NCBI GenBank assembly: GCA_937775205.1
Contig: CALKBX010000008.1
Coordinates: forward strand, 1-64,000
Reading direction: 5' to 3'
Source: an uncultured Verrucomicrobiae bacterium
GTDB taxonomy: Bacteria; Verrucomicrobiota; Verrucomicrobiia; Limisphaerales; UBA1100
Length of the DNA stretch: 64,000 nucleotides
Positions 30,661 through 59,302 of this stretch are shown piece after piece. The notes under the pieces are model-generated. The model saw only the letters and a list, made by a program, of their open reading frames with translations. It made no database searches and was not told the origin of the DNA. The translations under genes were made by a program, and so were the position numbers. Each line of letters opens with the position of its first letter. Within the stretch, counting starts at the first letter, position 1.

Positions 30661-30672
30661 AATACCACTTAA

Positions 30673-30689
30673 CGAGCAGCAACTGCTCG
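30673..30689 (-). other. Hairpin before the TPR-GT9 gene start
   Basis: A perfect 7-bp stem CGAGCAG/CTGCTCG with a 3-base loop lies 13-29 bases upstream of the ATG at 30660, where it could affect ribosome access. No sigma-54 site accompanies it. Confidence 0.35.
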
Positions 30690-30806
30690 GTGAGTCCATC
30701 CTTGGACGTGGTTGACAGCGTTAATGGCTGTTAATGTCGCTATACTATATGTCGGCAAAAGAGGGGGGTGACTTTAGGAAAATTTTTGCCTAATTTGGGA
30801 AAAACC

Positions 30807-36800: not shown

Positions 36801-39800
36801 CAGCCCGAGCGCGGATTCAAATTCATCGTTGCGTTCCGTCGCCTCCGCCGCCATCGCGAGGCGGGTGTAGGCGGCGGCATTGCGGGGTTGCAGCTCAATG
36901 AGTTTGCGGAATTTCACACGCGCTTCCTCAAAGCGTTCGAGTTGAAACAATTGCGAGCCAAGCGCGTCGATGAGCACGGGATTGTCCGGCTCCGCGAGCA
37001 CGGCGCGTTCGAGCTCGGCAATCGCGGCTTCCGGGTTGCCCGCGTCCAGGAAAAAATCCGCCTGCTCCACCGCGTTATTGGGTGCGGGTGGGGCCGGTTT
37101 TATTTCTGGCTTGGCTTCGACGATGGGTTCCGGAGCAGCTTCAGCGGTGGCCGCGGGTGCGCCCTGTTCAATCACTTGCAAGTTTTCGCGGGCGAGTTGG
37201 TCTTCTGAATCAAACTCCAGCAACTGCCGGTAAGTGTTGGCCGCCTGTTCGGCGTTGCCCGTTTCGTATTGGCAAACCGCCAGTGCGTGCAGCAAGCCGG
37301 ATGTCACTCCGCCATCGGCAGCGATTCGGCCATAAATTTTCTTCGCCGAAACACGGTCGCCAGTGAGGAAAGTATAATCGCCAAGCAACTGCATCGCCTC
37401 GCGGTTATCCGGCTCCAAATCCAGCGCCGTGACGAGGCACGCCTCGAAGGTCTCGCGGTCATCCGTGTGGAATGCCGCCAGCCCCAGCTGCAAATGCGCC
37501 ACCACATCCTCGGGGCACACCTCCGCCAGCGCGGCAAAATTCGCTCGCGCTTCGGCGAATTGCCCGGCGGCAAACTGCTGGGCACCCAGCGCGCGCAGCA
37601 GCATCGGATGCCGGTCACCCAGCTTCAGCGCCTGCGTCAACGCGGCAATGGCGCCGGGCACATCTTTTTGTTCGTGGCACTGCTCGGCTTGGTCCAGCCA
37701 TTTTTCCAGTGTGCCTTCGGGTAGTTGAGGGGTTCCGTTTGTATCGTTCATTGTAGAATCAGGGGTAATGGATTCGTTGGGTTGGTTAAACTGATTTTCG
37801 GTTTTGAAATCGCCTTCTCCATAATCGGGCTCATCACCGCGCGCCAGCCAGTCGAGCACCTGCCGCATTCGCACCTCGGCGGTGTGATGCCGCAGCACTT
37901 TTGCGCGCGCGCTTTCCGCCATTTGCTGAGCGGCTTCGGGATTTTCCTGCAACCGCAAAATGGCTTGCGCCAGCCCGCGCGCATCTTCGCGGTCAAACAA
38001 TTCAATCTCCTGCCCCGGCGCAAACAGCGCGCGTGTGCGTGCGCGGGGTGGGTCCCACGAAATCACCGGCCGACCCGCCGCCATGCTCTCCACCACGCGC
38101 CCGGCGTAGCATTTGAAAATGGAAGGCAAATTCACCTGCGCGTAGCTTTGCTGCAGGCCCTCCATCCAGAGGTCGTTCAGGCGACGGCGCAGGCGGCGCA
38201 GGTTTATGAGATATTCATCCAGCCAATCCGGCTCGACCACGTCGTAGAGGCTCACGCGATTGAGCGAGTTAATTTGCAGCACATCAAATTGCCGCGGGAA
38301 ACCGGAGCCAATCTCGGGCAAGGGCGGCTGCGTTACCAACCCCGCGCCAATGGCGGATTCGAGCAGCCCTTTCCGTTCCAGGTTATAAATCGTGCCATGA
38401 AACGCCGCTGGCCCCGGCTCGGGCAAAGCCACCGAATCGCACACCTCGCGCCAAGTGACCACCGGCGGGCACCACATCGTGGGAATGTTCAATTCCTCCG
38501 CCAGCGTTTCCGCATCGCGATCATCAAAAGTGAGCGCGTGCGTGCAATGCTGCAGGTGGCCCTTCACCTTGTCGCGTCGGCTGCCAAGATTGGAGTGTTG
38601 TTCCTCCTCCTCCGGCGTGTGCTCCAGCGATTCCATAATCACGCCCACGCGCACGTCGGTTTTGCTCTTTATCCAATCCAAAAATTCTGGGTCATAATCA
38701 TTGTGCGTAATCCAAATCCAAGCTTGGTCAAATTCCTCATGCAAAAACATATACTTCGCCTGACCCAACCACGAAGCCGGATGATCCGAAGGCACCCCCG
38801 CCAGCGCCGGCAACGTCCGGAACTCCACCTCATTCGCCGCCAACCCTTCTTCCAGCGCATAAAACCCATTATACGACCACGCCTTGGCGTTCTGCCAATT
38901 GCCGCACTCGAAGCCCACTAACAAAATTTTCTTCTTCGGCCGCGCGCCCGTCGGCCGCACCAAATGCGCCGCCCGATCGCTGTCCACCCGCACCGGTTCG
39001 TTGGCCTCCGTGCCGAAGGGATCCGCCGCCAGTGGCAGCGCTTCCTGCCCGGGGAGTTTCACCAAATCCACTTTGTCGTACTCGCTCGACGAATACGAAC
39101 TGCACACCGAACCCTTTTGCATCCGCCGGTAGCGGCTTTCCAATTCATCCAGACCCGGCACCGGTTCGCCCAGCAACTCGTGGCATTTCACCAACAACAA
39201 AAATGCAGGCTCCAAAATAATGCTGCGACGCGCAAGTTGATCCAGCAACACCACCGCCCTCGCCACATCGTCCGGCTCACGCCGATGCAATAGCGCGCGC
39301 GCCAGTGCGTAACGGTAATATGGGAAATCCGGATTCCAATCCACAGCCTGCTCCAGCGGCGCCACCTCGCCGGTGTATTGGCCGAGATAATGCGCGAGTG
39401 AAGCTCGGATCAAATTGGCCAGCGGCTTACTCTCCACCACGCCTTTGCCGAGCGCCTCGGTGAGCGTGTCGAAATAACTGCGATAATCAAAACACGTGCT
39501 GTGATAATCCCACGGCATCACGTCCTCTTCCGCATACACGCTGCCAGTGGTCGGCCGGTTGGGTGAGCAATTCGCGGGTGATCACCAGCGCCTTCTCCAC
39601 GCCTTCCGGATCGCCCAAGTGGAATGCGTGCCGCAGCGCGTTAAACCGCAACACCAGCGAATGCGGATGCTGTTTCCAGCCGTCCTCGTAAATTTCCCGC
39701 GCCACGTTGTGGAGCAATTCGTTTTCACGCTCAAACGCCTGCACCATGTCCAGCCGCTCAGAACGATCCACCAAATCCGGCATGTCCTCGGTCATATAAA

Positions 39801-39935: not shown

Positions 39936-41237
39936 TTACGCGTTTCTGATGCGGCTGCGCTTCAGCGCGTCCGCTCGCGCTCCCTTGGCGATTGCTGCGC
40001 GTACAGTGAGAAAACGCAGGAATTGAGAACCACAAATGGATTGAGCAAACTGTGTGCGCACCAATGCGCGCCCGCGTTGTGCAGCGTCCCGATATTTTTC
40101 CCAGTTGCCTGTTATCTTTTGCAGGCTATCCATCAGGTCATCCCGCTCCGTGTGGTACACCACCACGCCTTCGTTTTCGCCGGCGAACAATCGCAACGCA
40201 CTTTCCTCTTGCGTCAGCACCGCGCACCCCATCGCCAGCGACTCGATACCGCGCGAAGGCATACTGCCCGGATGCCGCACATAGGTGAAGGATGCCTTGG
40301 CTCGGGCCATCTCGGCGTAATATTCTGCCGGCGCTAAAAATCCATCAATGTGCCGAATTTGAGCACAGTCTTCATCAATCCATTGTTGTAGTAACCGCGC
40401 CTTGTCCGGGTGATACGGACTGCGCATTGTGCCGGAGATGAACAAATCCACGTCGCGCACACAGTTCTCATCAAGGATAGGCAGGCACTTTAAATCGAGC
40501 CCGAAGAGTTTTGGAAAAGTGCAAACCGGCCCCGGTCGCAATGCGGACGCCTTGGCCCATTCCTCCGCGCCCACGGTGATGACCTCGTCGAACACCGGCA
40601 GCACCGGTGCGTTATTTTGGATGTGCAAGTCCAAGTCCGAGGTGGTGCCGAAAACGGGGAAGGGTAGCTCGCCCAAGTCGTTGGGCAGAAACTGCCACTC
40701 AATCATGTGGGCAAAATAAAAGTCCGGGGTGCCTTTGATGGAATCCGCCGCTTTCAAAAATGGCTTCACCGGACGGCAATCCAAAATGATGTTTCCATTT
40801 TCATCGCGCCGAGTGCGATTTAGCCCAATGCGTTGCAGCGAAAATTTGTCATCCGTGAAATCCCCGTCCTCCCAAACCGTTTGTGCCACCACCTCAATGC
40901 GTTCCTTGCTGATGAGCCGCAGCAATTCAGCCGCCTCCGGCAAATCCAGTTCGCGTAAAACTTCCTTCGCCTCGTCCTCGCGCTTGGCCATCCACAACGC
41001 CGCCGCAAAATAAAATCGGGCTTCGGGATCGGTCTCGTTTTCCAGCACATCGAGGGCGAGATCCATCCGCCCCACCAAACCCAACGCCGCGGCCTGGCGC
41101 CAACCGGCTTCGCCCTGTTCGCCCGCCGCGCCACAGAAATTGCCCGCGCGGAACCAGTCCGCAGCAGGCCCGAGCGTAACGGGGGGCAGCGAGTAATGAC
41201 CCGCCTCCCGGGGGGGGGATGGCTTTGCAACATCCAT
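39936..41237 (-). CDS. CgeB/GT4-like glycosyltransferase with helical N-terminus
   Basis: It has 433 residues. The first ~115 residues are helical repeats (EAGWRQAAALGLVGRMDLAL). The rest is a GT-B-like domain with a C-terminal nucleotide-sugar motif (YVRHPGSMPSRGIESLAMGC). The ATG at 41237 lies about 4 bases from the start predicted for the sigma-54 promoter, so the message may be almost leaderless. It is followed after 32 bases by the giant glycosyltransferase. Donor and acceptor are unknown. Confidence 0.75.
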   Translation of the reverse strand: MDVAKPSPPREAGHYSLPPVTLGPAADWFRAGNFCGAAGEQGEAGWRQAAALGLVGRMDLALDVLENETDPEARFYFAAALWMAKREDEAKEVLRELDLPEAAELLRLISKERIEVVAQTVWEDGDFTDDKFSLQRIGLNRTRRDENGNIILDCRPVKPFLKAADSIKGTPDFYFAHMIEWQFLPNDLGELPFPVFGTTSDLDLHIQNNAPVLPVFDEVITVGAEEWAKASALRPGPVCTFPKLFGLDLKCLPILDENCVRDVDLFISGTMRSPYHPDKARLLQQWIDEDCAQIRHIDGFLAPAEYYAEMARAKASFTYVRHPGSMPSRGIESLAMGCAVLTQEESALRLFAGENEGVVVYHTERDDLMDSLQKITGNWEKYRDAAQRGRALVRTQFAQSICGSQFLRFLTVRAAIAKGARADALKRSRIRNA

Positions 41238-42447: not shown

Positions 42448-43255
42448 GCTTGTACAGTGTTGAGGTTTCGTTTGCCGAGCAAGTCGCCCAGTTTTTCCCG
42501 CGCGGAATTTCGGCGGCGGATTTGTAGCGGGCGTGGGTGCGTGCCCATTCGCCATTGGATTCATAATCCCATTGGCGCATTACGCCGCCTAATCCCTTGT
42601 GGAATTTCAGCGCCACGTCGCCATCAAATTGATTGGCCCAGTCGCCGGAAATGCCTTTGCGGAACATGTACTGCGTGCGCACGGTTTCCCCCATTTGGCC
42701 GCGCCGGCGTTGGGTGACTTTTTCAAAACTGTGCCGCGCGCACGATTCTTGCAGAGCGGCGTCGGTGGCCGGCACTTCGGCAAAATCCAAAATGCGCCGT
42801 AATCCGGCGGGAATATTTCGCTTCAATTCCTCAAACGTGAGGTTCATCACATTGGCCTGCTCAAGTGCCCGCCAAGAATTTGCATCGTCAAATAAATCAA
42901 GAAAATTAGATTCTTTATCCACATATTCGAGATACAATTCGATTTCGGTTTTATCCTCATCACACAACCCTCGATGAATGGCGTCTTTAACGTGCGACAC
43001 CAGCACATCACGTGGGTCGCGTGTGAGGCAGATAAACCGAAAATCATCCCGTGCCACGAAATCGCCAAAGAGCTCCGGCCCGCTGTGCGTCCAGTGGAAT
43101 GCGCGTTTGCCTGCGGCGACATCTGCCGCCAACTTTTCCAGTTCCGTAGGGCCGGAGAAAAATTCGCAGCCCGCCGCCTTCGCGAATTCCTCCAGTACCG
43201 GCATCACAATGGACGCCCCGGCGTTGGGTAGATTGTAAAAAACAACGTGTTTCAT
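42444..43255 (-). CDS. Sulfotransferase-fold protein, candidate phosphoramidate transferase
   Basis: About 270 residues from ATG 43255. The 5' loop appears as [20 protein letters not shown] and the 3'-phosphate-binding motif as [18 protein letters not shown], both marks of enzymes using 3'-phosphonucleotide donors such as PAPS. It is closely similar to the C-terminal domain of the kinase fusion encoded at 44009-45455. With one shift near 42500 it ends KLGDLLGKRNLNTVQA in an ATGA overlap. Given the adjacent CDP-phosphoramidate kinase, I infer transfer of phosphoramidate rather than sulfate. True sulfotransfer remains possible. Confidence 0.65.
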
Positions 43256-43260
43256 AAAAA

Positions 43261-44007
43261 TCAATCCTTCAATTGTGCGGCCCACAGGCGCGTGGTATAG
43301 CCCACCCCCAGCACTTTGCCGTGTGCCGCGGTGATCGCTTCGATGCCGCCGATGATGCCCGCGAAAGCTTCGCCGGCCTGGCGTTGCAGCGTGCCGTGCG
43401 AGCGCCACGCTTCCACGTAAGCCTCCGCCGGAACGCGTGCCACATACGAGGCTTCGATGAAAATCGGTTCTCCAAAAAGGCCGCTTTCACGGATGACTTC
43501 CGTTTGATCTTCGCGTCGCGTGCCGTAGCCGTAGCCGTCGATGCGGCTCTTGATGTAATCTTCCACCTCGGCCTGCAGCGAGTGGTTCAGATCACGGTGG
43601 TTCCACAAACAGGCGAACCAACCATTCGGCCGCAGGATGCGTTGCGTTTCGCGCAGGGCTTCCGGGCGGTCGGTGGTATTAAAGGATGACCCGAATGTCA
43701 CCGCATCAAAAGCGTTATCCGGTTGGCCGGTGGCTTCGCCGGTGCCCACGTGCCATTGCACGGGTTTGTTGGCGGTGACGCGCATACCCACCGCGCGCAT
43801 TGCGTCATTGGGTTCCACGGCGGCGACATTGCAGCCGCGCGCCATGAGTAACTTGGTGAGATGCGCGGAGCCCGCACCCACGTCGCACACGGCAGCATCC
43901 TGTCGCAGCTCGGCGAGGTCACAAAAACGCACCACCGCTTCCACGGCATAGTCCGGCCGATTCAAATAATGCGGCGCCAGTTCAGTATAGTCCCATTCTG
44001 TTTTCAT
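43261..44007 (-). CDS. Class I SAM-dependent methyltransferase
   Basis: It has 248 residues and an intact frame. SAM motif I is AAVCDVGAGSAHLTKLL (about residue 37), the acidic motif II is AAVEPNDAMRAVG, and post-motif FDAVTFGSSF is present. It is related to ubiE/Methyltransf_11-type enzymes. It starts one base after the kinase-transferase fusion gene. In C. jejuni a methyltransferase caps the phosphoramidate as its O-methyl ester; this gene is a candidate for the same step or for sugar methylation. The substrate is not deducible from sequence. Confidence 0.75.
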   Translation of the reverse strand: MKTEWDYTELAPHYLNRPDYAVEAVVRFCDLAELRQDAAVCDVGAGSAHLTKLLMARGCNVAAVEPNDAMRAVGMRVTANKPVQWHVGTGEATGQPDNAFDAVTFGSSFNTTDRPEALRETQRILRPNGWFACLWNHRDLNHSLQAEVEDYIKSRIDGYGYGTRREDQTEVIRESGLFGEPIFIEASYVARVPAEAYVEAWRSHGTLQRQAGEAFAGIIGGIEAITAAHGKVLGVGYTTRLWAAQLKD

Positions 44008-44008
44008 A

Positions 44009-45455
44009 TTAGTTTAGATCAATTCTGGGTTTGGATTGGAAAAGGTTTTTAATTTGTTGATCCGGGTTAAAGCGCGACGACGCGGTGAGCCCGTTGATGC
44101 GCGCGGTCATTTGTTCCAGTTGCAACATACTGGCGAACAGAGTGCCATCGAACTGCGAACTGGGGCGTTCCTCGCGGCAACGCTGACGTGGGCCTCGGCC
44201 CATTGGCCGGTGGGCTCGTGGCCCCAGGCGCGTAGGTATCGGCCGAAGCGGCGTTGGAATAGCCGCGCGGTTTGGCCGTCGAAATGATTGGCCCAATCGC
44301 CGGTGATGCCTTTGCGGTACAGGAATTGGCCGCGCAGGGTGTGACCGTTTTCCCCACGCGCCCGCCCGGTGATTTGCTCGAAGCTGTGTTTTTGGCAAAG
44401 CGCATTTTGGGCCGTGGGGCTGGCGGGAATGCCGGTGAATTCCAATAGTTGCCGCACGGTGGCCGGGACATCCGTTTTCATTGCCTCAAAATCCAGTTGA
44501 AAAACATTGGTCTGCTCCAGCGCGCGCCAGGCGTGGGCTTGCTCGAACCACTGATTGAAGCCAGATCGAATGGCTTCCTGGAAAAGTTGCTGCTCGGGTT
44601 TGCCTTCGTGCAGCCCGGCTTGGATGATGTCTTTTATGTAAGACACCAACACATCGCGCGGATCGCGGGTGAGGCAAATAAAGCGGACATCCTCGCGGTC
44701 GAGTTCGGCGGCGAATGTTTCCAGTGGATGATGGGTCCAGTGGAAAACGGGGTCGCCCGATTCCAGCAGCGGATGGAAACGATGCGTCTCGGCGGGGCTG
44801 GCGAGGTTGGCGTAGCCGTGGGCTTCGGCGAGGGTTTCGAGGATGGGCACCAGTGCGGAGGCACCGGAGTTGGGGAGGTTGTAAAATACCACGTGCGGTC
44901 GTTGCGAAAGCGAATGCAGGCCGAGGGCGGAACGCAGGAGTTCATTTGCCAGTTCGGTTGCCGACCGCAGTGGTGGGTTATTGTTCAGCACTAAATCGGG
45001 TTGGGCGGGGCGATCGTATTCGAGGTCGAAGCCGGCCACGTTTTTGACTTCCCCGCGGGCGGCGCGGCTGTAAAGGCCGCGGGCATCGCGTTCGCATAAT
45101 TCGGCCCAGTCGACATCCACCCAGATTTCAAAATAATTCGGCAAGTGCGCGCGGTTCCATTCGTGGATTTCACGAAAGAGCGACATCGTGGGCACGATGA
45201 CAGTTTGCCCTTGCTCGGCGAGCAAGCTGCGCTAGGCGGCTGATGCGGTACGCGTTGGCAAGGCGGCTGGTGGCGTCGTGGCCGGTTTTGGAATCGGCGA
45301 TTGCCGCGCGCACGGCATCGCCATCGAGCACCACGGGGCGCTCGCCACGCGCGCGCAATTGCTCGGCGGCGGCGGCGGCGATGGTACTTTTGCCGGAGCC
45401 GGAAAGTCCGGTAATCCAAAGCACGCGGCCGGTCGTTGTTTAAGTTTTCGGTCAT
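44009..45455 (-). CDS. CDP-phosphoramidate kinase (APS-kinase-like) fused to sulfotransferase-fold domain
   Basis: About 480 residues, interrupted by three single-base shifts (near 45430, 45233 and 44165). N-terminal ~170 residues: APS-kinase fold with P-loop [40 protein letters not shown] and [20 protein letters not shown]. This corresponds to C. jejuni Cj1415, which phosphorylates the 3'-OH of CDP-phosphoramidate. C-terminal ~290 residues: sulfotransferase fold ([36 protein letters not shown]) ending near 44009. The fusion suggests that the 3'-phospho donor made by the first domain is used by the second. A normal PAPS-making kinase plus sulfotransferase is the alternative, but the three upstream genes argue against it. 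Confidence 0.75.
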
Positions 45456-45469
45456 GCGGTTACAGCAGC

Positions 45470-46231
45470 TCAGCGGCTTCCCAGCGCCAATCGTGTTCCC
45501 AATTGGGACGGCCGAGGCGGTTCTTCGTACAGGCGCAGATCGGTTTCGCTATCCACCTCGCACCATCGGCCTCGGGTGGGGGTGGCGTTGATTTCCGCGC
45601 CGTCTTCCAGCAATAGCTGGAGCAGCGAAGTCATATCCAGCCGGTCGCGCCGCGCCTTGGGCAGGTCGTCGAGGATCACCTCGATGCGGCGCCAACCGGC
45701 TGGAGAAATTTTGAGCAGGCCCATGTATTGGCCTTCGATGTCGGTGACTTCGGCCGCACGATCGCCGATGGATTGCAGCGCGCCGTTGTCGCGCAGGCGA
45801 AAAGTCTCGGCATCTTCGAGCGGATCGGCAAAGCGATCGCGCCAGAGCGGCAGCCATTCCTGATCGTAGCTGATGACCAATTCGCCGGGGTTAAAAATAA
45901 GCTGCTCAAGAATGGCGGGGTGATAAACGATATCGGAATAAGACACGATGCAGTCATCGCGCTGCAGCCATTGGCTGGCGCAGGCGAGGGTGCTGACCAT
46001 ATTGGTGCGGGCCCAGTCGGGGTTTTCAAACCAAATGCAATCGGCGGGGTTAAGCGACTCGGCAAGATACCCGCGCACGATGGCGATGTCGCGAATGCCG
46101 GCGGCGCGCAGTGCTCCCAGTTGCCACTCGAGCAACGTGCGCCCGGCAAATGGTGTGAGGCATTTCGGGTGATCTTCGGTGAGCCCTCCCATACGGGAGC
46201 CGCGTCCGGCTGCTAAAATGATTGCGCGCAT
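45470..46231 (-). CDS. CTP:phosphoglutamine cytidylyltransferase (Cj1416-like)
   Basis: It has 253 residues, a single nucleotidyltransferase domain: AIILAAGRGSRMGGLTEDHP with PKCLTPF, and the metal-binding SYSDIVYHP. The length equals that of Cj1416 as I remember it. In that pathway the enzyme couples CTP to L-glutamine phosphate. By itself the sequence could be read as a LicC- or MobA-type cytidylyltransferase; its neighbours decide the call. It starts 4 bases after the hydrolase gene. Confidence 0.72.
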   Translation of the reverse strand: MRAIILAAGRGSRMGGLTEDHPKCLTPFAGRTLLEWQLGALRAAGIRDIAIVRGYLAESLNPADCIWFENPDWARTNMVSTLACASQWLQRDDCIVSYSDIVYHPAILEQLIFNPGELVISYDQEWLPLWRDRFADPLEDAETFRLRDNGALQSIGDRAAEVTDIEGQYMGLLKISPAGWRRIEVILDDLPKARRDRLDMTSLLQLLLEDGAEINATPTRGRWCEVDSETDLRLYEEPPRPSQLGTRLALGSR

Positions 46232-46235
46232 TTTT

Positions 46236-46880
46236 TTATTTCTTCCAACCTAAAGTGGTGCACAGCAGGTTCTGGTCCAGTTGCGCCTGCAAGTTATCCC
46301 CATCGCGTTCGGGATGCCATTGCACGGCGGCGATGGGCGCGGCACGGTGGCGCACTGCCTCCACGCAGCCATCATCGCTGGCGGCCAGCAGTTCGAGCGA
46401 TGGAGCCAGTGTGTTCGCGGGCACGGCCCAGTTGTGAAATGAATTAACCGTGGCGCGTCCGGGCGCATCGAATTCCAGCAAATCTGTTCGCAAATGCACG
46501 GTGTGTTTTTGGGCCAAATGTGTTTTGGGCTCGCACCGGCGCAGTGCGCCGCCGCCGCGTTGTTGCAGCAATTGCATCCCGCGGCATACGCCGAAGACCG
46601 GCAGCGCGTGGCGCACGGCGTGATCGATCACGGTGTTCTCGGTTTTGTCGCGGATGGGACAGTTGCCGAGGTCATTGCCGCCGGATAAAATAAATCCATC
46701 GAGCTGCCAGTGCTGGATAAACTCCGCCACCGCCGCGCCAAGGTTGGGGATGGGCACCCACGCCACATCCGGTGCGAGCGCGGCCATATAGCGCGCCCAA
46801 TCCTGAGCCAAGCAATCGCGCGATTCACCGGAACCGGCGGCTTGTCCCACTCTCATTGTGATGCCAATACGTTCAGCCAT
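46236..46880 (-). CDS. Gamma-glutamyl-CDP-amidate hydrolase (Cj1417-like, peptidase C26)
   Basis: About 214 residues from ATG 46880 (MAERIGITMRV), overlapping the previous gene by 8 bases. Class I amidotransferase fold: GFILSGGNDLG, nucleophile Cys in VFGVCRGMQLL, and His/Glu in AVQWHPER. Cj1417-type enzymes release glutamate to give CDP-phosphoramidate. PuuD-like gamma-glutamyl-GABA hydrolase is the family alternative, but no polyamine genes are nearby. Confidence 0.75.
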   Translation of the reverse strand: MAERIGITMRVGQAAGSGESRDCLAQDWARYMAALAPDVAWVPIPNLGAAVAEFIQHWQLDGFILSGGNDLGNCPIRDKTENTVIDHAVRHALPVFGVCRGMQLLQQRGGGALRRCEPKTHLAQKHTVHLRTDLLEFDAPGRATVNSFHNWAVPANTLAPSLELLAASDDGCVEAVRHRAAPIAAVQWHPERDGDNLQAQLDQNLLCTTLGWKK

Positions 46881-49350
46881 AAATTGGTCGGAGTAATTTT
46901 GCCGCGCCATCGAGCTCCACCCGGTTGGCGGCGGCAATACGTTCAAAAGTTTGTTCGCCCACGCCAATAGCCGCGGGCAGGCCGAGCTCGGCGCAGCGGA
47001 TGGTCATGTGGCTGTTGGCACCGCCGAACTTGCTGACAAGCCCAGCGATGTTGCGCGTGAAAATCCAGTCGAATCCCGGATCGGCATTTTCGATGCAAAT
47101 GATGCGCCCGCTCAGTTGGCCGTGGCCGCGGGATTGATTGCCCAGCCGTAGTGGCTCACCTTCCACGTGGCGGTTGCCGACAAAGTTGGGCGCGCTACGG
47201 TGCAGCGGCACTACATAGAAATCACCCGGATCTCGGATGAGATAGCCCAGCCGAATGCCATCCACGTTTTCCTGTTCGCGTCGGCGCTGTTCGACGAGAT
47301 CCTCAAAGTACAGCTCGGGATCGTTGAGCACCGGGCTGACGAGGTGATTGAGCAAATCCTGCACCGTGAGATGCGAGAGCGCGTCGCGGTCCAGCCGCGT
47401 GTCGCTGCCCCAATGCGCGATCAGCTCCAGCGCATCGGAAAGGTGCCGCGTGAAAATGAACTTGGCGCGTTCGCGCTCGGTGATGGCTTGGCGCGCGTAC
47501 TCGATGAATTGCCCCGGCTCCACGTCCGGCATCCCCGCCTCGGAAAAAAGTTCCTGGAACAACTGCGCCTCCTCACGGGTGAGCGGGAAAATGGCATCAC
47601 TGGTGGCCGGCTCGGGCTGGGCGGTGGCGGCAAACAAATCATCGCGTTGATCGTAACGCGGCGAGGTGATGTCATACGTGCCCGGGCGCAGATGGCCGTA
47701 CTTGGCGAGAAACTCCGGACGCCGGCGCGGTTGCGCAAGGGCTTCAGCAAAGTCGCCGGTGAAATCCGCCGTCACTGTGCGCAGAGTGCGCTTGAAGGCC
47801 GCCAGCCGTTTGCCCGAAAGTGCGTCGCGTGTTACCGCCGAACGTAGAATGGCCTCCGCCATAAATGCGTGCCGCGCGATGACCGAAAATGGACGTGTGC
47901 CCAGCGCGCGGCATTCTTCGAGCAACACCGGCAAATGCGCCAAGTCGTTGAGCGGGCGGCGCTGGGTTTGCAGTGCCTCGAGCTGATGGATTTTTTCCAG
48001 GGCTACCGGTAACGAAGCGCCGGGCACAAGGCTGAGGTTGGTGGCGGTGAGTTTCGAAAGTTGATTGCGGTAATCGAGATACTCATCCGGCTCGAGCACA
48101 TCGTCGTAGCGGTTTTGGAAATCTTCGTCGAAATTAAAATCCAACACCGTCTGCGCCACTTCAAACTCCACCTTGTCGTGCAGTTTCGGGTTGGCCTCCA
48201 AACGGTCAAGCCACGCATCGACCAGTCGTTCGCGTGTTTTGATAGGCAATCCGGCGGGCAGAAACGAATTAAAACTCGCGCGCACATCGATGTACGGCTG
48301 GCCGCCGAGCGTGAGCATCAGCGGCGTATGCGGCACTGGCTGGTAACCCATCTCCGCGCGGGCCTCCTGCCAAATGGAATCGGTGATGAGATGCCGGTAC
48401 AGCGAAACTGCCAGCGGTCGCGGGCGGGTGCCGATAATCTCAGCGGGATTCCAGTCGGGCATCTGCCCAAGAATAGTGCGCGCTCCGGCCAGTCCCGCGT
48501 GCGGTTGGGCATGGCGCGTGAAAAATTCGCCCGCCTGAAACAGCACTTCGCCGACGTGACGGCTGATGCGGCGGTTCCAGTTTTCCTGCACCGTGATGCG
48601 CCGCACCTGCAGCAAATGCAACTGCCCGTCGCGCGTTTTGGCAAATTCAATATCCAGCGGCGTGCCGCGATCGCACAGGCTTTCCAACTCGCGCGTCAAC
48701 TCCAGCAACTCCGCCACGCGCGGTGAATCCACGTGATCGGTCACATAATCACGATGTACCAAAACTGTTTTATTGACCACACTGCCGCCGGTGATGGTGT
48801 CGGTCTTGCCGGTTTCATCATCGTAATTCAGCACGTAATACGGCGCGCCAGTGTCCAGCTCGTGCGTCATAATTACGCCGCTCAAAGTCACGTCCGTCAC
48901 CATCGTCATCACCAGCACCTGATTTTCCGGGCAATCATCCATCGACCCGATGACTTCCTCCACCGCGCTCCACACCGCGCGTGGTTGACTGCTGTCCACG
49001 TCCAGGCAGGAGGCAAATGCGCCGGCTTGAGAGTGCTGTTCGCCGTCTTCGTTTACCGCGCTGCTGCGGAACACCACTTGTCCGCCGCCAAATCGCTCGT
49101 TTATTTCCTGAGTGATTTCCACCGGCAACGCCGACCACTCGGCTACGGTAAAACTAATCAACTTCGGCACCGCCGCTTTTTTCACCAACGGCTGCAACGC
49201 CGCGAGTGTGTCCGATTTTGTTCCAAAACTTCCCAACACCGTCGGCATCACCGCCGCCGTTGTGCAGGGCGCGGACACCGCGAAATCCTCAAGCAAATCT
49301 GCGCTTGAGGACTCGCTCTCCGTGTGGAGGTCTTGGCAGGCGATGGTCAT
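46873..49350 (-). CDS. L-glutamine kinase (Cj1418-like, PEP-synthase family)
   Basis: About 825 residues from ATG 49350, which overlaps the radical SAM stop as TAATG. N-terminal ATP-grasp PPDK domain: VVFRSSAVNEDGEQHSQAGA, VLVMTMVTDVTLSGVIMTHE, HLLQVRRITVQENW. The C-terminal swivelling domain carries the catalytic His: GGANSHMTIRCAELGLPAAI. The size and domain order fit Cj1418, which phosphorylates the glutamine side-chain amide as the first committed step of phosphoramidate synthesis. A pyruvate-using PEP synthase would have an additional PEP-binding barrel, not evident here. Confidence 0.75.
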   Translation of the reverse strand: MTIACQDLHTESESSSADLLEDFAVSAPCTTAAVMPTVLGSFGTKSDTLAALQPLVKKAAVPKLISFTVAEWSALPVEITQEINERFGGGQVVFRSSAVNEDGEQHSQAGAFASCLDVDSSQPRAVWSAVEEVIGSMDDCPENQVLVMTMVTDVTLSGVIMTHELDTGAPYYVLNYDDETGKTDTITGGSVVNKTVLVHRDYVTDHVDSPRVAELLELTRELESLCDRGTPLDIEFAKTRDGQLHLLQVRRITVQENWNRRISRHVGEVLFQAGEFFTRHAQPHAGLAGARTILGQMPDWNPAEIIGTRPRPLAVSLYRHLITDSIWQEARAEMGYQPVPHTPLMLTLGGQPYIDVRASFNSFLPAGLPIKTRERLVDAWLDRLEANPKLHDKVEFEVAQTVLDFNFDEDFQNRYDDVLEPDEYLDYRNQLSKLTATNLSLVPGASLPVALEKIHQLEALQTQRRPLNDLAHLPVLLEECRALGTRPFSVIARHAFMAEAILRSAVTRDALSGKRLAAFKRTLRTVTADFTGDFAEALAQPRRRPEFLAKYGHLRPGTYDITSPRYDQRDDLFAATAQPEPATSDAIFPLTREEAQLFQELFSEAGMPDVEPGQFIEYARQAITERERAKFIFTRHLSDALELIAHWGSDTRLDRDALSHLTVQDLLNHLVSPVLNDPELYFEDLVEQRRREQENVDGIRLGYLIRDPGDFYVVPLHRSAPNFVGNRHVEGEPLRLGNQSRGHGQLSGRIICIENADPGFDWIFTRNIAGLVSKFGGANSHMTIRCAELGLPAAIGVGEQTFERIAAANRVELDGAAKLLRPIYG

Positions 49351-50918
49351 TAGCAATTCAAACGAGGCAGGTTTCTGGTGCGGCAGTTTCCAGCAACTGA
49401 CGGGGCAGGGGCACTTTGGCTCATGTCCTCCACGTTCAGGCGCTGGGCGCGGCCGAATTTTTTCTCAACTAAATTGAGATAATCGGGGTTGGTAAAATAA
49501 GTCTGCCAAGCGTCATCGCGGAAGCGCACCACTTCGGCGGCGCTCAAATGCTTGGTGGGCAGCGGCTGGCTTTCGTATGACAAGAATGCGTAGCCCTCAT
49601 AGTTGGTTGGCAGCGGCCAGCCGTTTTGCTTGGCCTCGTAATACAACGGACTGCCGGGCAGGGCTTGGCACGGATACATATTGGCCATCTCGGTGTTCAG
49701 CTCCAGCGCGAGGTCGAGCGTTTGTTGCATCGTCTCGTGGGTGTCATCCGGGAAACCGTAAATGTAATTGGAAATGATGTTCACGTCCGCCTCGCGAATT
49801 TCGCGTGCTACTTCGCGGATGTTGATGTCCTTAAACGACCCTTTCGATACTTCGCGCCGTACTGCTTGGTTGCCGGCCTCGACTCCGAGCGCCAGCCAGC
49901 CGATGCCCGCACGCTTAAACAGATCGAGATACTTCGGGCGTACCGTATCGATGCGCGAGTACGCCCACATCCGCAGCGATAGCTCACGGTCGATGATGTT
50001 GTTGAGCAACGGTTCGAAATACCGTTTGTCCAAGAAAAACATTTCATCCGAAATCCGCAACGTCTCCACGCCGAGGTTGGCAAGCGTCTCGAATTCTTTC
50101 GTGATAAAGTCCGGCGACCAATACCGCATTTTGCGCGAGTCCGACGAGTTGATGCCATCGCCGTTGTCCTCGCGGTTCACGATATTGATCATACAAAAAT
50201 TGCAGGCAAACCGGCAGCCGAGCGAAGTATAAATCGCCGCAAACGGCGTGCGCTTGGCGTGATCAAACTCCGCGTGCCAAAAATGCGCGCGGTACAAATC
50301 CAAGGGCTGCTTGTCGTACGGCAGCAAATCCCACGCGTAGCCCGGCAGATCGATGTCCATCCGTTCCTGCGGCACCACGTGCTCCGGCGCATTCAGCCAC
50401 GGCCGCCCGTGCAGCTTGTGGCCGATGCCCTTCACCTTCCCTACCTCGTCATCGAGATTGGAGCGCAACAAATTTTGCACCGCATAAACGCCTTCATTCA
50501 ACAGCACATAATCAATGCTATCCTCCGTCAACACTTCCAACGGCAGCGCGCTCGTGTGCGAACCGACGATTGCGATTTTGTATTCCGGATAAGCCGCTTT
50601 CAACCCGCGCGCCAACGCGATGGCACCGATCATATTGGTCGTGCCGGAGTTCGGGTTCTGTCCATAAACTGTCAGGCAAACGAGGCGCGGGTTGGCCTCG
50701 TCGATGCGCCGCACCGATTGCTCCAGCGTGAGTCGCTCTGCGCCGGTGTCCAAAATCGCCGCCTCAAAACCATTGCTCCGGCAGGCCTGCGCGAGCAGCA
50801 GCGACCACGTGGGCGTCTCGATGGCCGAATATTTTTGGGCCAATTCCTGATACGCCTTCGCCGAGGAATCGGGCGAGACGAACAGCACGTCGAGTTGTTT
50901 GTTCAAAGATTTAATCAT
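49350..50918 (-). CDS. B12-binding-domain radical SAM enzyme
   Basis: It has 522 residues. Residues ~10-150 are a cobalamin-binding-like Rossmann fold (LVCLTVYGQNPNSGTTNMIG, KIAIVGSHTSALP). The DxHxxG His is not seen (ILDTGAERLT), as in many class B members. The radical SAM core has SLGCRFACNFCMINI (CxxxCxxC) near residue 235, plus GWLALGVEAGNQAVRREVSK. It lies two bases after the ColD-like gene in the operon. A methylation or rearrangement of the sugar or of the phosphoramidate precursor is possible; the reaction is unknown. Confidence 0.75.
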   Translation of the reverse strand: MIKSLNKQLDVLFVSPDSSAKAYQELAQKYSAIETPTWSLLLAQACRSNGFEAAILDTGAERLTLEQSVRRIDEANPRLVCLTVYGQNPNSGTTNMIGAIALARGLKAAYPEYKIAIVGSHTSALPLEVLTEDSIDYVLLNEGVYAVQNLLRSNLDDEVGKVKGIGHKLHGRPWLNAPEHVVPQERMDIDLPGYAWDLLPYDKQPLDLYRAHFWHAEFDHAKRTPFAAIYTSLGCRFACNFCMINIVNREDNGDGINSSDSRKMRYWSPDFITKEFETLANLGVETLRISDEMFFLDKRYFEPLLNNIIDRELSLRMWAYSRIDTVRPKYLDLFKRAGIGWLALGVEAGNQAVRREVSKGSFKDINIREVAREIREADVNIISNYIYGFPDDTHETMQQTLDLALELNTEMANMYPCQALPGSPLYYEAKQNGWPLPTNYEGYAFLSYESQPLPTKHLSAAEVVRFRDDAWQTYFTNPDYLNLVEKKFGRAQRLNVEDMSQSAPAPSVAGNCRTRNLPRLNC

Positions 50919-50920
50919 CG

Positions 50921-52126
50921 TTACAGGGTGTTCAACAGTTCAGTCAGCAGCGTGATGCGTTCGGGCTCAAGGTCGGGATAGTTCCCAATGTACCAGCCGT
51001 AAAAGTGGACGTGATTTGTAAAGGGATAATTTTTGTACTCATCGCCAAACCGCTCGCGGGCATAAGGCTGCCGCAGTTGATTGCCGCCACCGGCGGTGCC
51101 GCGGCGAAATTCCACTTTCCATTCACGCAACGTGCTTTCCACGCGATCGCGCAGGGCATCGTCCGGACTGCGCAAAATCAATGTGAACGCGTAATTGCTG
51201 CTGCCTTCCACGGCGAAATCGGTTTGGAATTTCGAGGAGTCCAAGCCATTTAAGAAGCGCTTCAAGTTACGCGTGCGAATGGCATTGTTGTCGTCCAAAC
51301 GCTTCAGTTGATGGCGCCCAATCACTGCGTTGAGTTCGGTGCCGCGCACGTTGTAAGCGGGATAAGCAAAAATAAATTCCGGATTCAAATCCGGATGCTT
51401 GGATTGGTAACGTTCCTTCGTTGATTGCTCCGACGCTTCGCGCACCATTCCGTGCGAACGATAGATGCGGATGGCTTCGTAAAGTTCATCGTCATTTGTG
51501 CAAACCATCCCGCCCTCAACCGTGCTGAGATGGTGCGCGTAATAAAAAGAAAAGTTCGAAGCCCAACCCATACTGCCCACGCGCTGGCCGTTGAACGTCG
51601 CGCCGTGTGCTTCACAGCAATCTTCAACCAACGGAATGTTGCGCTTCTCAAGTTCATCGAGCAAACGCTGATCCAGTCCGTTGTACCCGAGCACGTGCGT
51701 CAGAAAAACGGCCTGCGTTTGGTCGTTCACTTTGTCGAGCACTTGCGAAATATCCATGCCGAGCGTGCGCGGATCAATGTCCACAAACACTGGCGTCAAG
51801 CCCGCGTGCAGCACCGAGGCGATGTCGCTCACCCACGTCAGCGTGGGCACAATCACTTCGCCTTCACCCTTGAGCTGGCGCAGCGCGGCCATCGTCACGA
51901 GGTTCGCTGCCGAGCCGGAATGCACAAACACACTGTGCTTCACGCCGAGCCACTCGCTCCATTCGCGTTCGAACTCGCGCACGTTTGTTGACTGTGTGAG
52001 AATCGGATCGTCCTGCTGCAAAAATTCAATAAGACAATCTAAATCCGCCCGCGTGATGTTATTGCGCATCAACGGCCACGGGCCGAGGGCGGTTTGCGGT
52101 TCAGCGATGGCGGCGCTATTTTTCAT
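50921..52126 (-). CDS. ColD-like PLP sugar 3-dehydratase (DegT family)
   Basis: 401 residues from ATG 52126, which overlaps the previous stop by 11 bases. DegT/DnrJ/EryC1 fold with VFVHSGSAANLVTMAAL and LVEDCCEAHGA. Where aminotransferases have the PLP-binding Lys, this protein reads SFYYAHHLSTVEGG. The His matches ColD and RfbH, which remove the sugar 3-OH. The [2Fe-2S] cysteines of RfbH are absent, favouring the glutamate-coupled ColD type. The substrate is likely an NDP-4-keto-6-deoxy sugar, probably GDP-linked given the neighbours (inference). Confidence 0.78.
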   Translation of the reverse strand: MKNSAAIAEPQTALGPWPLMRNNITRADLDCLIEFLQQDDPILTQSTNVREFEREWSEWLGVKHSVFVHSGSAANLVTMAALRQLKGEGEVIVPTLTWVSDIASVLHAGLTPVFVDIDPRTLGMDISQVLDKVNDQTQAVFLTHVLGYNGLDQRLLDELEKRNIPLVEDCCEAHGATFNGQRVGSMGWASNFSFYYAHHLSTVEGGMVCTNDDELYEAIRIYRSHGMVREASEQSTKERYQSKHPDLNPEFIFAYPAYNVRGTELNAVIGRHQLKRLDDNNAIRTRNLKRFLNGLDSSKFQTDFAVEGSSNYAFTLILRSPDDALRDRVESTLREWKVEFRRGTAGGGNQLRQPYARERFGDEYKNYPFTNHVHFYGWYIGNYPDLEPERITLLTELLNTL

Positions 52127-52661
52127 TATAAAAATCTCCGTATTCCACGAGAATCGTACTCTTGCCATCCTCCCGCGTGCGGGCTTTTTCGTAGGCGGGG
52201 AAAACCTCATTCGCTTCTTCAAGCCGAATAACCTCCACGTTTTTCAACATCGAGCGGTAGGCATCGGTGTAATCGCCGATGTGCTGATGGCCCGGATGCA
52301 GTGGGCGTTGCGAGCCGATGCTGGTGCGGATGATGGCTTTAGGCTGGTAACCGCCCGCGGACATCTCGCTAAATTTATCGAGGTGATTGACTAGTTGATT
52401 GGTGGCGAGCAGCAGAAAATTCCAGCGCGGGAAAATGCTGACCGGCAGTTTTCCCTGCAGCGCGAGGCCATTGGTCATTCCCATTTGCATGTCCTCATCT
52501 ACGGGCAGCTCCACTTTGCGGTCGTTGGAAATTTCCTTGAGCGTGTTGCTCATCGCCGTGCCGGGGCAGGCAACGGCTTGGCCGATGAACACCGTGGCCG
52601 GATCTTCGGCGAGGTATTCCATCGAGCGTTTTAGTTCATCAAAATATTTCAGCAGTTTCAT
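52116..52661 (-). CDS. ThDP-dependent enzyme, beta (Pyr) subunit
   Basis: 181 residues from ATG 52661. Transketolase/E1-beta pyrimidine domain: TVFIGQAVACPGTAMSNTLK, with the ThDP-activating Glu region VELPVDEDMQMGMTNGLALQ. It is only about half the length of a usual E1-beta and lacks the C-terminal transketolase domain. It pairs with the alpha subunit 11 bases upstream. Split, short E1-like pairs are known for two-carbon branch formation on sugars, as in avilamycin AviB1/B2. That role here is inference. Confidence 0.72.
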   Translation of the reverse strand: MKLLKYFDELKRSMEYLAEDPATVFIGQAVACPGTAMSNTLKEISNDRKVELPVDEDMQMGMTNGLALQGKLPVSIFPRWNFLLLATNQLVNHLDKFSEMSAGGYQPKAIIRTSIGSQRPLHPGHQHIGDYTDAYRSMLKNVEVIRLEEANEVFPAYEKARTREDGKSTILVEYGDFYNEK

Positions 52662-52672
52662 GGCGTTCGTGC

Positions 52673-53341
52673 TTAAAATTGTACGCGCTGGCCAGCGCCG
52701 GCGTGCGGGTATTTGGTTTCGTATTGGTAATAGGTGACGTACGGGTTGTCGGCGTTCTCGTAAGTGAGCGTGTCCACGCCCCAAGTTTCGCGGGTGTCGG
52801 TGCAAACGCTTTTGCCGTTGTCCTCAATCACAAAGTGCACCGGCAGCTCATGGTTTTGTACATACTTGATGCACTCATGAGCTGAGCCGGTTTCGGAAGT
52901 CATATCGCCAAGGAAACACCACACGCGTTCCTTGCCGCCCTCGCGCTGGATGCCGAGGCCGAGCCCAACGGCGATGGGGAGCACGCCGGTGACGATGGCG
53001 GAACTCAACACGCGGTGCTCGGGAAAATTCAAGGTGATGGAATGACCGGCCATAATTTCGGTCTTCACTTCATCAGTCGGCACGCCTTTGAGCAGGCATT
53101 GATAATGACTGCGCCACGAGCACAGCACCCAATCATCCGCGCGCACGCGGTCGAACATATCAATCATCTCGCGCTCGTTGCCGGAATAAAGATGCACCGG
53201 CGCCTTAATTTTTGAGGCGTTAAATTCGTCGGCGATGTCGTCCTCGAAAGCAATTAGCTCCTCGGGCGTCCAACGCGGCAAACCGCCCGCGGTTAATTCG
53301 TCGGCGGCGGTTTCGGGTTCGCAAATGAATGGGGGTCTCAT
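52673..53341 (-). CDS. ThDP-dependent enzyme, alpha (PP) subunit
   Basis: 222 residues. E1-alpha-type ThDP-binding domain with the GD...N motif: WCFLGDMTSETGSAHECIKY followed by HFVIEDNGKSVCTDT. It also has the E1-like VLCSWRSHYQCLLKG and SAIVTGVLPIAVGLGLG. It is shorter than dehydrogenase E1-alpha (~330), and no E2 or E3 gene is present, so it is not a 2-oxoacid dehydrogenase complex. It begins 3 bases after the GHMP kinase gene. Confidence 0.74.
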   Translation of the reverse strand: MRPPFICEPETAADELTAGGLPRWTPEELIAFEDDIADEFNASKIKAPVHLYSGNEREMIDMFDRVRADDWVLCSWRSHYQCLLKGVPTDEVKTEIMAGHSITLNFPEHRVLSSAIVTGVLPIAVGLGLGIQREGGKERVWCFLGDMTSETGSAHECIKYVQNHELPVHFVIEDNGKSVCTDTRETWGVDTLTYENADNPYVTYYQYETKYPHAGAGQRVQF

Positions 53342-53344
53342 GAT

Positions 53345-54436
53345 TTAGGCAAAATTAGCGAGTGCTTCGGCGGTGGCCTCCACGTCATCGAGTTCACGGA
53401 ATTCGGCCAATTGTCGGGATTTATTGTCGGCCTCGGCGGCTGAGTAGTCCTGATCGCGGTCGTAAAAAATCACCTGACTTCCAGCTGTTTCAAAATTGAA
53501 CGGCACGTGAATGAGGCGATTGAGTTTCTCACGCACCGCTGGTTGGAACTGCGGCGGCACGAACAGGAGCATAAATCCTCCCCCGCCCGCGCCGGTGATC
53601 TTGCCGCCGATGGCGCCTGAATCACGAGCGGCGTTATATAGTTCACTGATGGCATCGTTGGAAATTTTTTCACTGATCGCCTGTTTGGTCAGCCAACTTT
53701 CGTGCAGTAACTCGCCGTATTCCTTAATCGGCCCGTGACCGCACAGGACGGCGAGGGCTTCTTCCACCATATCGCGCAGGATGCGAAGTTGGCGGCGTTT
53801 CTTTTCAAGTGAGGGCACATAGCTGCCGGCCACCTTGTCGGCGGTGCGCTTGATGCCCGTATAAAAAAGCATGAGATGCGACGTGAGTTCATTGAGCCGA
53901 TCGGGCGGGATGATCACCGGTCGCACCGAAATTTCTCCGGAAGTGTGGAAGGTAATGTGGTTGAATCCGCCGTACGCCGCGTTGACTTGATCCTGCGAGC
54001 CGACGGTTTCTTTCAACAAATCCTGTTCCAAATGAATGCTCTCATTGGCGAGTTGTTCCTTCGTGGCCATGTGGCCCTTGAGGGCGTAGAGAGCGTTGAG
54101 GAGACCGACCGTGAAGGCGGAGCTGCTGCCCATTCCGCTGCGGGCGGGGAGGTCGCCGTCGTGATGAATCTCAATCCCGCGATTGAGGTTCATAAATTTC
54201 AGCGTGGCGCGCACCGAGGGATGCTGTATTTCTTCAATAGTATTAGTGCTCTCGATTTGCGAATACACCACGCGAAATTGATGGTCGAAAAACGGCGGCA
54301 AATGGCGCGCGTTAATGTAGCAGTACTTGTCGATGGTGGAGGAAAGCACCGCGCCGCCGTGCTCGCGGTACCAGCCCGGATAGTCCGTGCCGCCGCCAAA
54401 CATCGAGATGCGATAGGGGGTTCGAGTAATTATCAT
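53345..54436 (-). CDS. GHMP sugar kinase, heptose-7-phosphate kinase (HddA)-like
   Basis: 363 residues. N-terminal TRTPYRISMFGGGTDYPGWY is typical of HddA-like D-glycero-D-manno-heptose 7-phosphate kinases; the GHMP ATP loop is DLPARSGMGSSSAFTVGLLN; motif 3 is GGKITGAGGGGFMLLFV. It is the first gene of a twelve-gene operon with a perfect sigma-54 promoter 70-85 bases upstream. The leader contains an inverted repeat GGCAGG/CCTGCC at its 5' end (54473-54494). With the HddC-like gene upstream it would supply GDP-heptose. gmhA and gmhB are not in the window. Confidence 0.75.
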   Translation of the reverse strand: MIITRTPYRISMFGGGTDYPGWYREHGGAVLSSTIDKYCYINARHLPPFFDHQFRVVYSQIESTNTIEEIQHPSVRATLKFMNLNRGIEIHHDGDLPARSGMGSSSAFTVGLLNALYALKGHMATKEQLANESIHLEQDLLKETVGSQDQVNAAYGGFNHITFHTSGEISVRPVIIPPDRLNELTSHLMLFYTGIKRTADKVAGSYVPSLEKKRRQLRILRDMVEEALAVLCGHGPIKEYGELLHESWLTKQAISEKISNDAISELYNAARDSGAIGGKITGAGGGGFMLLFVPPQFQPAVREKLNRLIHVPFNFETAGSQVIFYDRDQDYSAAEADNKSRQLAEFRELDDVEATAEALANFA

Positions 54437-54505: not shown

Positions 54506-54521
54506 AGCAAATGGCGTGCCA
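54506..54521 (-). promoter_or_regulatory. Sigma-54 promoter of the phosphoramidate/glycan operon
   Basis: TGGCACG-CCAT-TTGCT matches the consensus at every position, with exact spacing and an AGT preceding it as at the flagellar sites. It has the same -24 box and 4-base spacer as the fliO promoter. A GCCAAAAAACCGCC element lies ~55 bases upstream. Confidence 0.87.
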
Positions 54522-54617: not shown

Positions 54618-55346
54618 TCAGGCGAATTGGGCCTGATTTTCAGTCACAAAAGCCTCCGCTTGAGGCAATGTTTCCGGTGTGCCGATGTCGAGGAAAGCCG
54701 CTTCCACGGGATGGGCGCGGAGGCCGCCTTTTTCGCTTAATAGATTGGGAAACACTTCGCGCTCCAAACTCAACGGGCGTGTTTCCGGAAAACTTTCCAG
54801 CACCGAATGGCGAAGCAGATAAATGCCGCCGTTGATGTGGCCTGCGCCGGGTTGTTTTTCTTCGAAAGCGGTGATGCGTCCGTTGGCGTCGGCGCGCACG
54901 CTTCCGTAGCGAGCGGTGTCGGGCACGGCGCGGGTGACCATCACGCCATCGGCTTCGCCGAGGTCATTGCACAACTCAGCGACGTTAGCGAAAATAAGTG
55001 AGTCGCCATTTAACACCAGCCACGCTTCCGGTGATGCGCCGCATTGAGCGGCAGCATAGGCGAGGCCGCCGCCGGTTCCCATCGGCTGGAGTTCGGCAAC
55101 GCATTGCACGTTCATATCCGAAACCGGTTGCGTAGAAAAATGGTTCACCACATATTCAGATCCGTAGCCGGTGGAGATGACCACATCGCGAACGCCTTGA
55201 GATTTTAGCCAGCGGACAATCCATTCGACGAAGGGTTTGCCGTTGACGGGCGCCATTGGTTTGGGGAGATCGCCGAGCAAATCCTTCACGCGCGTGCCGA
55301 AGCCGCCAGCAAGAATGAGCGCGGTGATGTTCCCGGGCGCGGGCAT
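54618..55346 (-). CDS. Sugar-phosphate nucleotidyltransferase, HddC-like
   Basis: 242 residues. Nucleotidyltransferase signature ALILAGGFGTRVKDLLGDLP with PKPMAPVNGKPFVEWIVRWL; metal-binding WLVLNGDSLIF; GHINGGIYLLR. It resembles heptose-1-phosphate guanylyltransferase HddC/RmlA-like short enzymes. It overlaps the upstream epimerase gene by one base. The kinase following it across the sigma-54 promoter fits a GDP-heptose route. Confidence 0.75.
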   Translation of the reverse strand: MPAPGNITALILAGGFGTRVKDLLGDLPKPMAPVNGKPFVEWIVRWLKSQGVRDVVISTGYGSEYVVNHFSTQPVSDMNVQCVAELQPMGTGGGLAYAAAQCGASPEAWLVLNGDSLIFANVAELCNDLGEADGVMVTRAVPDTARYGSVRADANGRITAFEEKQPGAGHINGGIYLLRHSVLESFPETRPLSLEREVFPNLLSEKGGLRAHPVEAAFLDIGTPETLPQAEAFVTENQAQFA

Positions 55347-59259: not shown

Positions 59260-59286
59260 AGCGACAGTTGTTTTCGGAGGTAACAA

Positions 59287-59302
59287 AGCAATGCCCGTGC
59301 CA
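59287..59302 (-). promoter_or_regulatory. Sigma-54 promoter of fliW-csrA-flagellin
   Basis: TGGCACG-GGCA-TTGCT is a perfect match. The start is predicted near 59276, about 17 bases before the fliW ATG. The next ~200 bases upstream (59303-59500) are A/T-rich with a GGCAAAAACGGCC element at 59442-59454 and no gene. Confidence 0.87.

Follow-up and report, generated by a model that had tools for sequence, protein, structure and literature searches.

What would an enzyme set known from the capsule of Campylobacter jejuni be doing among the flagellar genes of a marine Verrucomicrobiota bacterium? The question is raised by a 64,000-nucleotide stretch of DNA (the window, on contig C8) from a metagenome-assembled genome of 3.25 Mb that is 92% complete. 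On its minus strand, a glycan island at 33.9-57.8 kb is flanked by a run of flagellar basal-body genes (8.7-29 kb) and by the genes for flagellin and FliW (57.7-59.3 kb). The core of this island encodes a glutamine kinase-like enzyme (KIN), an amidotransferase-like hydrolase (GAT), a cytidylyltransferase (CYT), and a kinase resembling adenosine 5'-phosphosulfate (APS) kinases (APSK), which we collectively call the module, together with a methyltransferase and a second sulfotransferase-like protein. We consider it fairly likely that this operon makes an activated phosphoramidate and decorates a flagellin-linked glycan with it, and bacteria may therefore put phosphoramidate groups on flagella.

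The four module genes are neighbors in the order and direction of C. jejuni Cj1418-Cj1415, as a first-pass annotation of this DNA had claimed, and CYT indeed has the 253 residues given there (coordinates in Table 1). KIN scores 894 bits against NF004508 (cut-off 501), a family of which we take Cj1418 to be a member, while phosphoenolpyruvate (PEP) synthase models stay below 60 bits. Its candidate phosphohistidine is invariant in an alignment of 83 sequences, and no close relative of KIN was found among solved structures. For GAT, the best NCBIfam model is the gamma-glutamyl-CDP-amidate hydrolase NF045546 (99.9 bits, runner-up 67.9; CDP, cytidine diphosphate), which was matched by all 24 tested GATs of module loci and ranked at the top wherever the ranking was displayed. 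The three catalytic residues of GAT are invariant across 49 homologs, and translation probably begins inside the called frame, at an ATG near 46880. CYT matches the nucleotidyltransferase family without matching any specific model. Its invariant residues are G9, G11, R13, K23, and D100, and a profile of module cytidylyltransferases has the cytidine triphosphate (CTP):phosphocholine cytidylyltransferase as its best match in the PDB.

The fourth enzyme can be told apart from ordinary APS kinases (CysC) in several ways. An intact kinase from a congener passes PRK05541 (169.7 bits, cut-off 127) and fails the apsK equivalog model (123.2 versus 138.7). In a tree of 47 kinases, 34 module kinases form one group (branch 92/81) that is separate from CysC references, while L039 and the reference L152 are long branches without placement. 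Two kinases from module neighborhoods (L036 5439 and L097) group with CysC and were taken as such, and L036 additionally has a kinase of the module type. All ten CysC sequences have a phenylalanine at the LGF position and nine of them another one preceding a TG motif, whereas module kinases have tyrosine or histidine at the former position (33/37) and valine at the latter (27/37). The window-type kinase has neither phenylalanine (Phe to His and Phe to Val). In APS kinase structures, these two residues sandwich the adenine of APS, and replacement of the pair in module kinases makes a changed nucleobase plausible. Given the NF004508 pass by almost 400 bits, the NF045546 matches, and a kinase passing PRK05541 while failing apsK, the operon very probably encodes phosphoramidate activation of the Cj1418-Cj1415 type. 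The identities that the first-pass annotation had named as refuting this assignment were checked at family level for PEP synthase, PuuD, and CysC, and none of them applies to the module enzymes. LicC had been named as well, and given the phosphocholine cytidylyltransferase as best PDB match of the profile, CYT may still be of that kind.

How the activated group might be transferred is suggested by the architecture of the fourth gene. Pfam finds the end of an APS kinase domain followed by Sulfotransfer_1, with the kinase P-loop in a different frame, while the same gene is a single open reading frame (ORF) of 481-493 amino acids in the congeneric loci L022, L026, and L087. The gene has no open frame in this assembly, and its fusion to a C-terminal sulfotransferase-fold domain had been overlooked by the first-pass annotation. 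When the intact fusion was modeled with AlphaFold2 (mean predicted local distance difference test score 82), residues 8-181 matched APS kinases (Z 25, root-mean-square deviation (rmsd) 1.6), and residues 182-414 matched sulfotransferases (SULTs) that use 3'-phosphoadenosine 5'-phosphosulfate (PAPS; Z 17.1, rmsd 4.1 over 219 residues). The transferase domain retains the catalytic histidine and both 3'-phosphate-binding motifs, RDPRDVLVS and RKGISGDW, while the lysine of the usual PKSGT in the 5'-phosphosulfate (PSB) loop is missing, with LPNSGA or LPNAGA found in the window and its relatives.

The genome encodes exactly two PF00685 proteins, the fusion and the second transferase, and the gene for the latter is a separate intact ORF in the same three congeneric loci. 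Using an iterated profile, sulfotransferase-like ORFs were found in 20 module loci. In Azospirillum loci L122 and L172, the kinase domain is C-terminal in a long protein (for L172 judged by an annotation of similar length), and the N-terminal half of the L122 protein shows sulfotransferase-like motifs by eye only and no Pfam sulfotransferase match. Compared with L026, the transferase half of the fusion has 90 synonymous and 99 nonsynonymous codon differences among 306 codons and is far more divergent than the kinase half, as would be expected if acceptor specificity varies. The product of Cj1415 is a 3'-phosphorylated nucleotide (PMC6429109). By analogy, this product is formally PAPS-like, which would make a sulfotransferase fold the natural transferase, and we regard a role of these domains as phosphoramidate transferases as an even bet or slightly better.

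These elements can be assembled into a route of which the first four reactions are known from C. jejuni. Downstream of the glutamine kinase, CYT would convert N-phospho-glutamine and CTP into CDP-glutamine, from which GAT would hydrolyze off glutamate to leave CDP-phosphoramidate. The kinase half of the fusion would then add a 3'-phosphate, and the resulting 3'-phospho-CDP-phosphoramidate would be a structural analog of PAPS. From this donor, the fused and the neighboring second sulfotransferase-fold domains may move the phosphoramidate to a sugar, just as sulfate is moved from PAPS, and the methyltransferase would probably cap it. The sugar is probably a heptose or an amino sugar made by the HddA-like, HddC-like, DegT-type, and thiamine-dependent enzymes of the island, and its glycosyltransferases with tetratricopeptide repeats (TPRs) would place it on flagellin, with transcription of the operon driven from a promoter of the flagellar sigma-54 class. 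The pathway had previously been called complete, which understates the locus, since the methyltransferase and the second sulfotransferase-fold gene follow them.

The module extends far beyond this genus. We took 79 KIN loci from GTDB genomes, and their record titles name Verrucomicrobiota, Pseudomonadota, Desulfovibrio-type bacteria, Omnitrophota, Acidobacteriota, and Planctomycetota as well as Chlorobiaceae, Balneolaceae, Nanopelagicales, and Krumholzibacteriota. For counting partners, we considered the 43 independent loci from outside the genus in which KIN is flanked by 6 kb to the left and to the right. CYT is within reach of KIN in 40 of them, and GAT, CYT, and APSK are all nearby in 35 from many phyla, so that their grouping exceeds chance. 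Within Verrucomicrobiota, the KIN family is patchy and exceeds the cut-off in 3 of 289 sampled genomes. Pairwise fusions link KIN with GAT (L120), CYT with APSK (L082), and, in the window genus, APSK with the sulfotransferase-fold domain. The KIN-GAT fusion of 1011 amino acids is encoded on a sequence labeled "Bacteriophage sp." (MT837632, L120 1-9540) that looks like a piece of bacterial chromosome. The idea that it might be a Campylobacter contig was dropped as its neighbors TrxB, Prs, MurC, and a DnaD/DnaC-like protein (assigned by eye) point to a Clostridia-type chromosome. A search of a viral contig collection yielded neither KIN nor CysC relatives.

Other loci vary this theme. In many proteobacteria, a domain without Pfam assignment lies between the module kinase and KIN (L050 8641-9984, L081 6395-7021, L066 6702-7784, and L090 7402-8463). 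In L050, it is fused with a formyltransferase-like domain, in L066 and L090 with the kinase. Agrobacterium vitis (L126 11911-17000) has KIN, GAT, and CYT followed by a CDP-alcohol phosphatidyltransferase with no adjoining gene annotated as APS kinase, a gene set that suggests a different use of CDP-phosphoramidate. On the symbiotic plasmid of Cupriavidus taiwanensis (L125 14810-17307), a KIN homolog with a perfect sigma-54 site ahead of it is located beside nif genes, and GAT and CYT are unannotated nearby.

In the window, the connection to flagella is regulatory as well as positional. Perfect matches to the sigma-54 promoter TGGCACG-N4-TTGCT occur four times in the window (0.01 expected) and six times in the genome, while a reversed control gave none. 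The four sites in the window precede flgB, fliW, a second flagellin gene, and the first gene of the module operon (54506), and the operon site is conserved in L021, L022, L023, L026, and L141. The other two perfect sites of the genome (L173 1198 and L174 2869) precede prepilin-like genes. Synteny of the flagellar neighborhood is preserved in congeners (L026), and in a second genus of the family (L024) the C-terminus of a flagellin ends immediately upstream of KIN. Both the promoter and the flagellar neighborhood described by the first-pass annotation were thus verified. Co-regulation and synteny lend good support to its proposal of a flagellin glycan as the target, and we infer that flagellin is likely the protein that carries the acceptor.

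Several observations weigh against parts of this interpretation. The 99.9 bits of GAT fall below the curated NF045546 cut-off of 250, and most modules of other organisms lie in other surface-glycan loci, suggesting that flagellar use is a recurrent yet minority context. Among 38 flagellated proteobacterial genomes, flagellin or FlgL is encoded within 10 kb of KIN in only four, two of which are close relatives (about 0.8 expected by our estimate), and two further genomes have it 27 and 34 kb away. The module also occurs in cultured, non-pathogenic organisms, among them Methylotenera oryzisoli La3113 (L033), where it is located close to flagellin. The same pathway might therefore serve a capsule, lipopolysaccharide (LPS), or exopolysaccharide and its flagellar position be incidental, in line with the known case in which a capsule is decorated (PMC3907429). 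We find this rather unlikely, given that the operon shares a rare promoter with flgB, fliW, and flagellin, that flagellin adjoins the module in a second genus, and that TPR glycosyltransferases, but no products of capsule export genes, were seen among the scanned island proteins (from part of the window ORFs). A further point is that the genome makes APS and has no separate CysC, its sole APS kinase homolog being the fusion, which could in principle make PAPS. CysD, CysN without an APS kinase domain, CysH, and a sulfite reductase-like gene are clustered on contig C10 (all except CysD named by eye), indicating that APS is made and probably reduced directly. The thought that the sulfotransferases might lack PAPS for want of APS is ruled out by this presence of CysDN. 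The fusion could then be a PAPS synthase-sulfotransferase that sulfates a flagellar glycan while KIN, GAT, and CYT serve another purpose, and the folds of its two domains are those of enzymes that make and use PAPS. Yet the kinase scores too low for the apsK equivalog and has neither of the CysC phenylalanines. What defines its clade is linkage to KIN and not to CysDN, which is on a different contig, and the PKSGT-loop lysine is missing. Together, these points make sulfation very improbable. As a separate observation, a 59%-complete congener (G003, contig C64, L152) has an extra CysC and an ATP sulfurylase that are missing in its relatives and possibly represent contamination.

The state of the genes themselves must also be considered. 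The fusion is broken by one-base insertions or deletions (indels) near 45432, 45226, and 44185 that are all private to the window genome, so that the N-terminal part of the kinase, its C-terminal part with the transferase, and the tail are spread over three frames. Private one-base indels at 42513 and 42376 likewise break the second transferase frame at its 3' end, and the C-terminal tail of CYT is unlike its congeners owing to indels around 45520/45468. The private one-base indels cluster at window positions 41600-45520, and the genes on either side are intact. If the frameshifts in the fusion and the second transferase were real, the pathway would be decaying in this strain and its product no longer be made, and the bunching of indels at 41.6-45.5 kb could be read in this way. 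However, synonymous and nonsynonymous codon differences in the kinase part (18:7 compared with L087) resemble those between two intact copies (29:11), which makes an assembly error or very recent breakage likelier than long decay. With intact flanking genes and whole genes retained in congeners, we consider decay improbable and return to phosphoramidate transfer to a flagellin-linked glycan as the favored explanation.

Compared with known systems, the locus is a variant of the Campylobacter pathway for O-methyl phosphoramidate (MeOPN; Cj1418-Cj1415 with transferases Cj1421/Cj1422), for which we partly draw on general knowledge. Both share the four enzyme families with their gene order, the glutamine kinase family, the APS kinase-like final kinase, and a methyltransferase and heptose genes close by. 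Unlike in C. jejuni, the genes of the window form a flagellar sigma-54 operon instead of a capsule locus in another phylum, the kinase is fused to a sulfotransferase-fold domain, and the hydrolase scores below the curated cut-off. With PAPS synthesis and sulfotransfer (CysC/NodQ and SULT-type enzymes), the locus has in common both domain folds, the 3'-phosphate-binding motifs, and the logic of a 3'-phosphorylated nucleotide donor; it differs in a kinase of a separate clade that lacks the two conserved phenylalanines, fails the apsK cut-off, and is linked to a glutamine kinase and not to ATP sulfurylase, and in the replaced PSB-loop lysine. The locus also resembles flagellin glycosylation islands, with which it shares genes for sugar nucleotides and for TPR glycosyltransferases that adjoin flagellin and belong to the flagellar promoter class; no phosphoramidate has been described on flagella in the literature searched. 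In this search of open-access papers, phosphoramidate surface groups were reported solely in the Campylobacter capsule and not on flagella.

A 2022 review termed the glutamine kinase specific to C. jejuni (PMC9561416), and in 2025 the enzymology of methyl phosphoramidate decoration of its capsule was still left to future work (PMC12409886). The module is now found beyond the Campylobacter capsule in many phyla and, within the window genus, in an operon co-regulated with the flagellum. The kinase-sulfotransferase-fold fusion offers a direct answer, open to testing, to two questions: by what means the group is transferred and for what reason the donor carries a 3'-phosphate. If true, transfer by a sulfotransferase fold would account for the very presence of a 3'-phosphorylation step in the Campylobacter-type pathway. 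We are evenly divided about the broader proposal that sulfotransferase-fold enzymes use 3'-phospho-CDP-phosphoramidate as a PAPS analog and that the modification occurs widely among bacteria, with flagella as its site in several lineages. Altogether, the first-pass annotation was upheld in part in both observation and interpretation, having overlooked the frameshifts, the fused transferase together with the methyltransferase and heptose genes, and how widely the module is distributed.

Table 1. Features of the window with their positions, strand, and the matches or residues on which each assignment is based.
Feature	Position	Strand	Basis or remark
TPR protein with GT9 (heptosyltransferase-family) domain, adjoining the flagellar gene run	29227..30699	-	TPR models, PF01075
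1893-aa CgeB-type glycosyltransferase with TPRs and GT2 glycosyltransferase, candidate flagellin glycosyltransferase	33858..39539	-	PF13524, TPR models, PF00535
CgeB-type glycosyltransferase	39936..41237	-	PF13524
Second sulfotransferase-fold protein, candidate second phosphoramidate transferase	42513..43258	-	PF00685, 81 bits
Class-I S-adenosylmethionine (SAM) methyltransferase, candidate phosphoramidate O-methyltransferase	43261..44007	-	PF08241; family near KIN in 21/74 other loci
Fusion: CDP-phosphoramidate-kinase-like domain with APS kinase fold at the N-terminus, sulfotransferase-fold domain (candidate phosphoramidate transferase) at the C-terminus	44009..45455	-	upper coordinate approximate
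CYT, CTP:phosphoglutamine cytidylyltransferase-like nucleotidyltransferase, Cj1416-type	45470..46231	-	PF12804
GAT, class-I glutamine amidotransferase-like gamma-glutamyl-CDP-amidate hydrolase, Cj1417-type	46236..46967	-	Pfam PF07722/PF00117; catalytic C128, H218, E220
KIN, L-glutamine kinase-like enzyme, Cj1418-type	46873..49356	-	NF004508; phospho-His candidate H783
B12-binding radical SAM protein	49350..50918	-	PF02310, PF04055
DegT-type sugar aminotransferase	50921..52222	-	PF01041
Two-subunit thiamine-dependent enzyme (E1 alpha and beta)	52116..53341	-	PF00676, PF02779
HddA-like heptose 7-phosphate kinase, with which the sigma-54 operon begins	53345..54436	-	NF049969, 135.8 bits, below cut-off
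Sigma-54 promoter TGGCACG-N4-TTGCT	54506..54521	-	perfect match; 70 bp upstream of hddA-like gene
HddC-like sugar-1-phosphate nucleotidyltransferase	54618..55346	-	NF049965, 144.8 bits, below cut-off; PF00483
NAD-dependent sugar epimerase/dehydratase	55346..56278	-	PF01370
Flagellin	57678..58490	-	PF00669, PF00700
FliW	58819..59286	-	PF02623; perfect sigma-54 site 59287-59302 ahead

MeOPN is carried by a heptose in C. jejuni 11168 (PMC3907429). The HddA-like, HddC-like, and GT9 domains of the window hint at a heptose as well, and since neither the HddA nor the HddC score reaches its curated cut-off, the sugar identity is to be read as a hint only. In Azospirillum lipoferum, the phosphoramidate module is likewise found near genes for a DegT-type aminotransferase and a two-subunit thiamine-dependent enzyme. 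The B12-dependent radical SAM protein is encoded between the aminotransferase gene and KIN, and its weak NCBIfam matches include P-methyltransferases, so that methylation of the sugar or of phosphorus would be possible.

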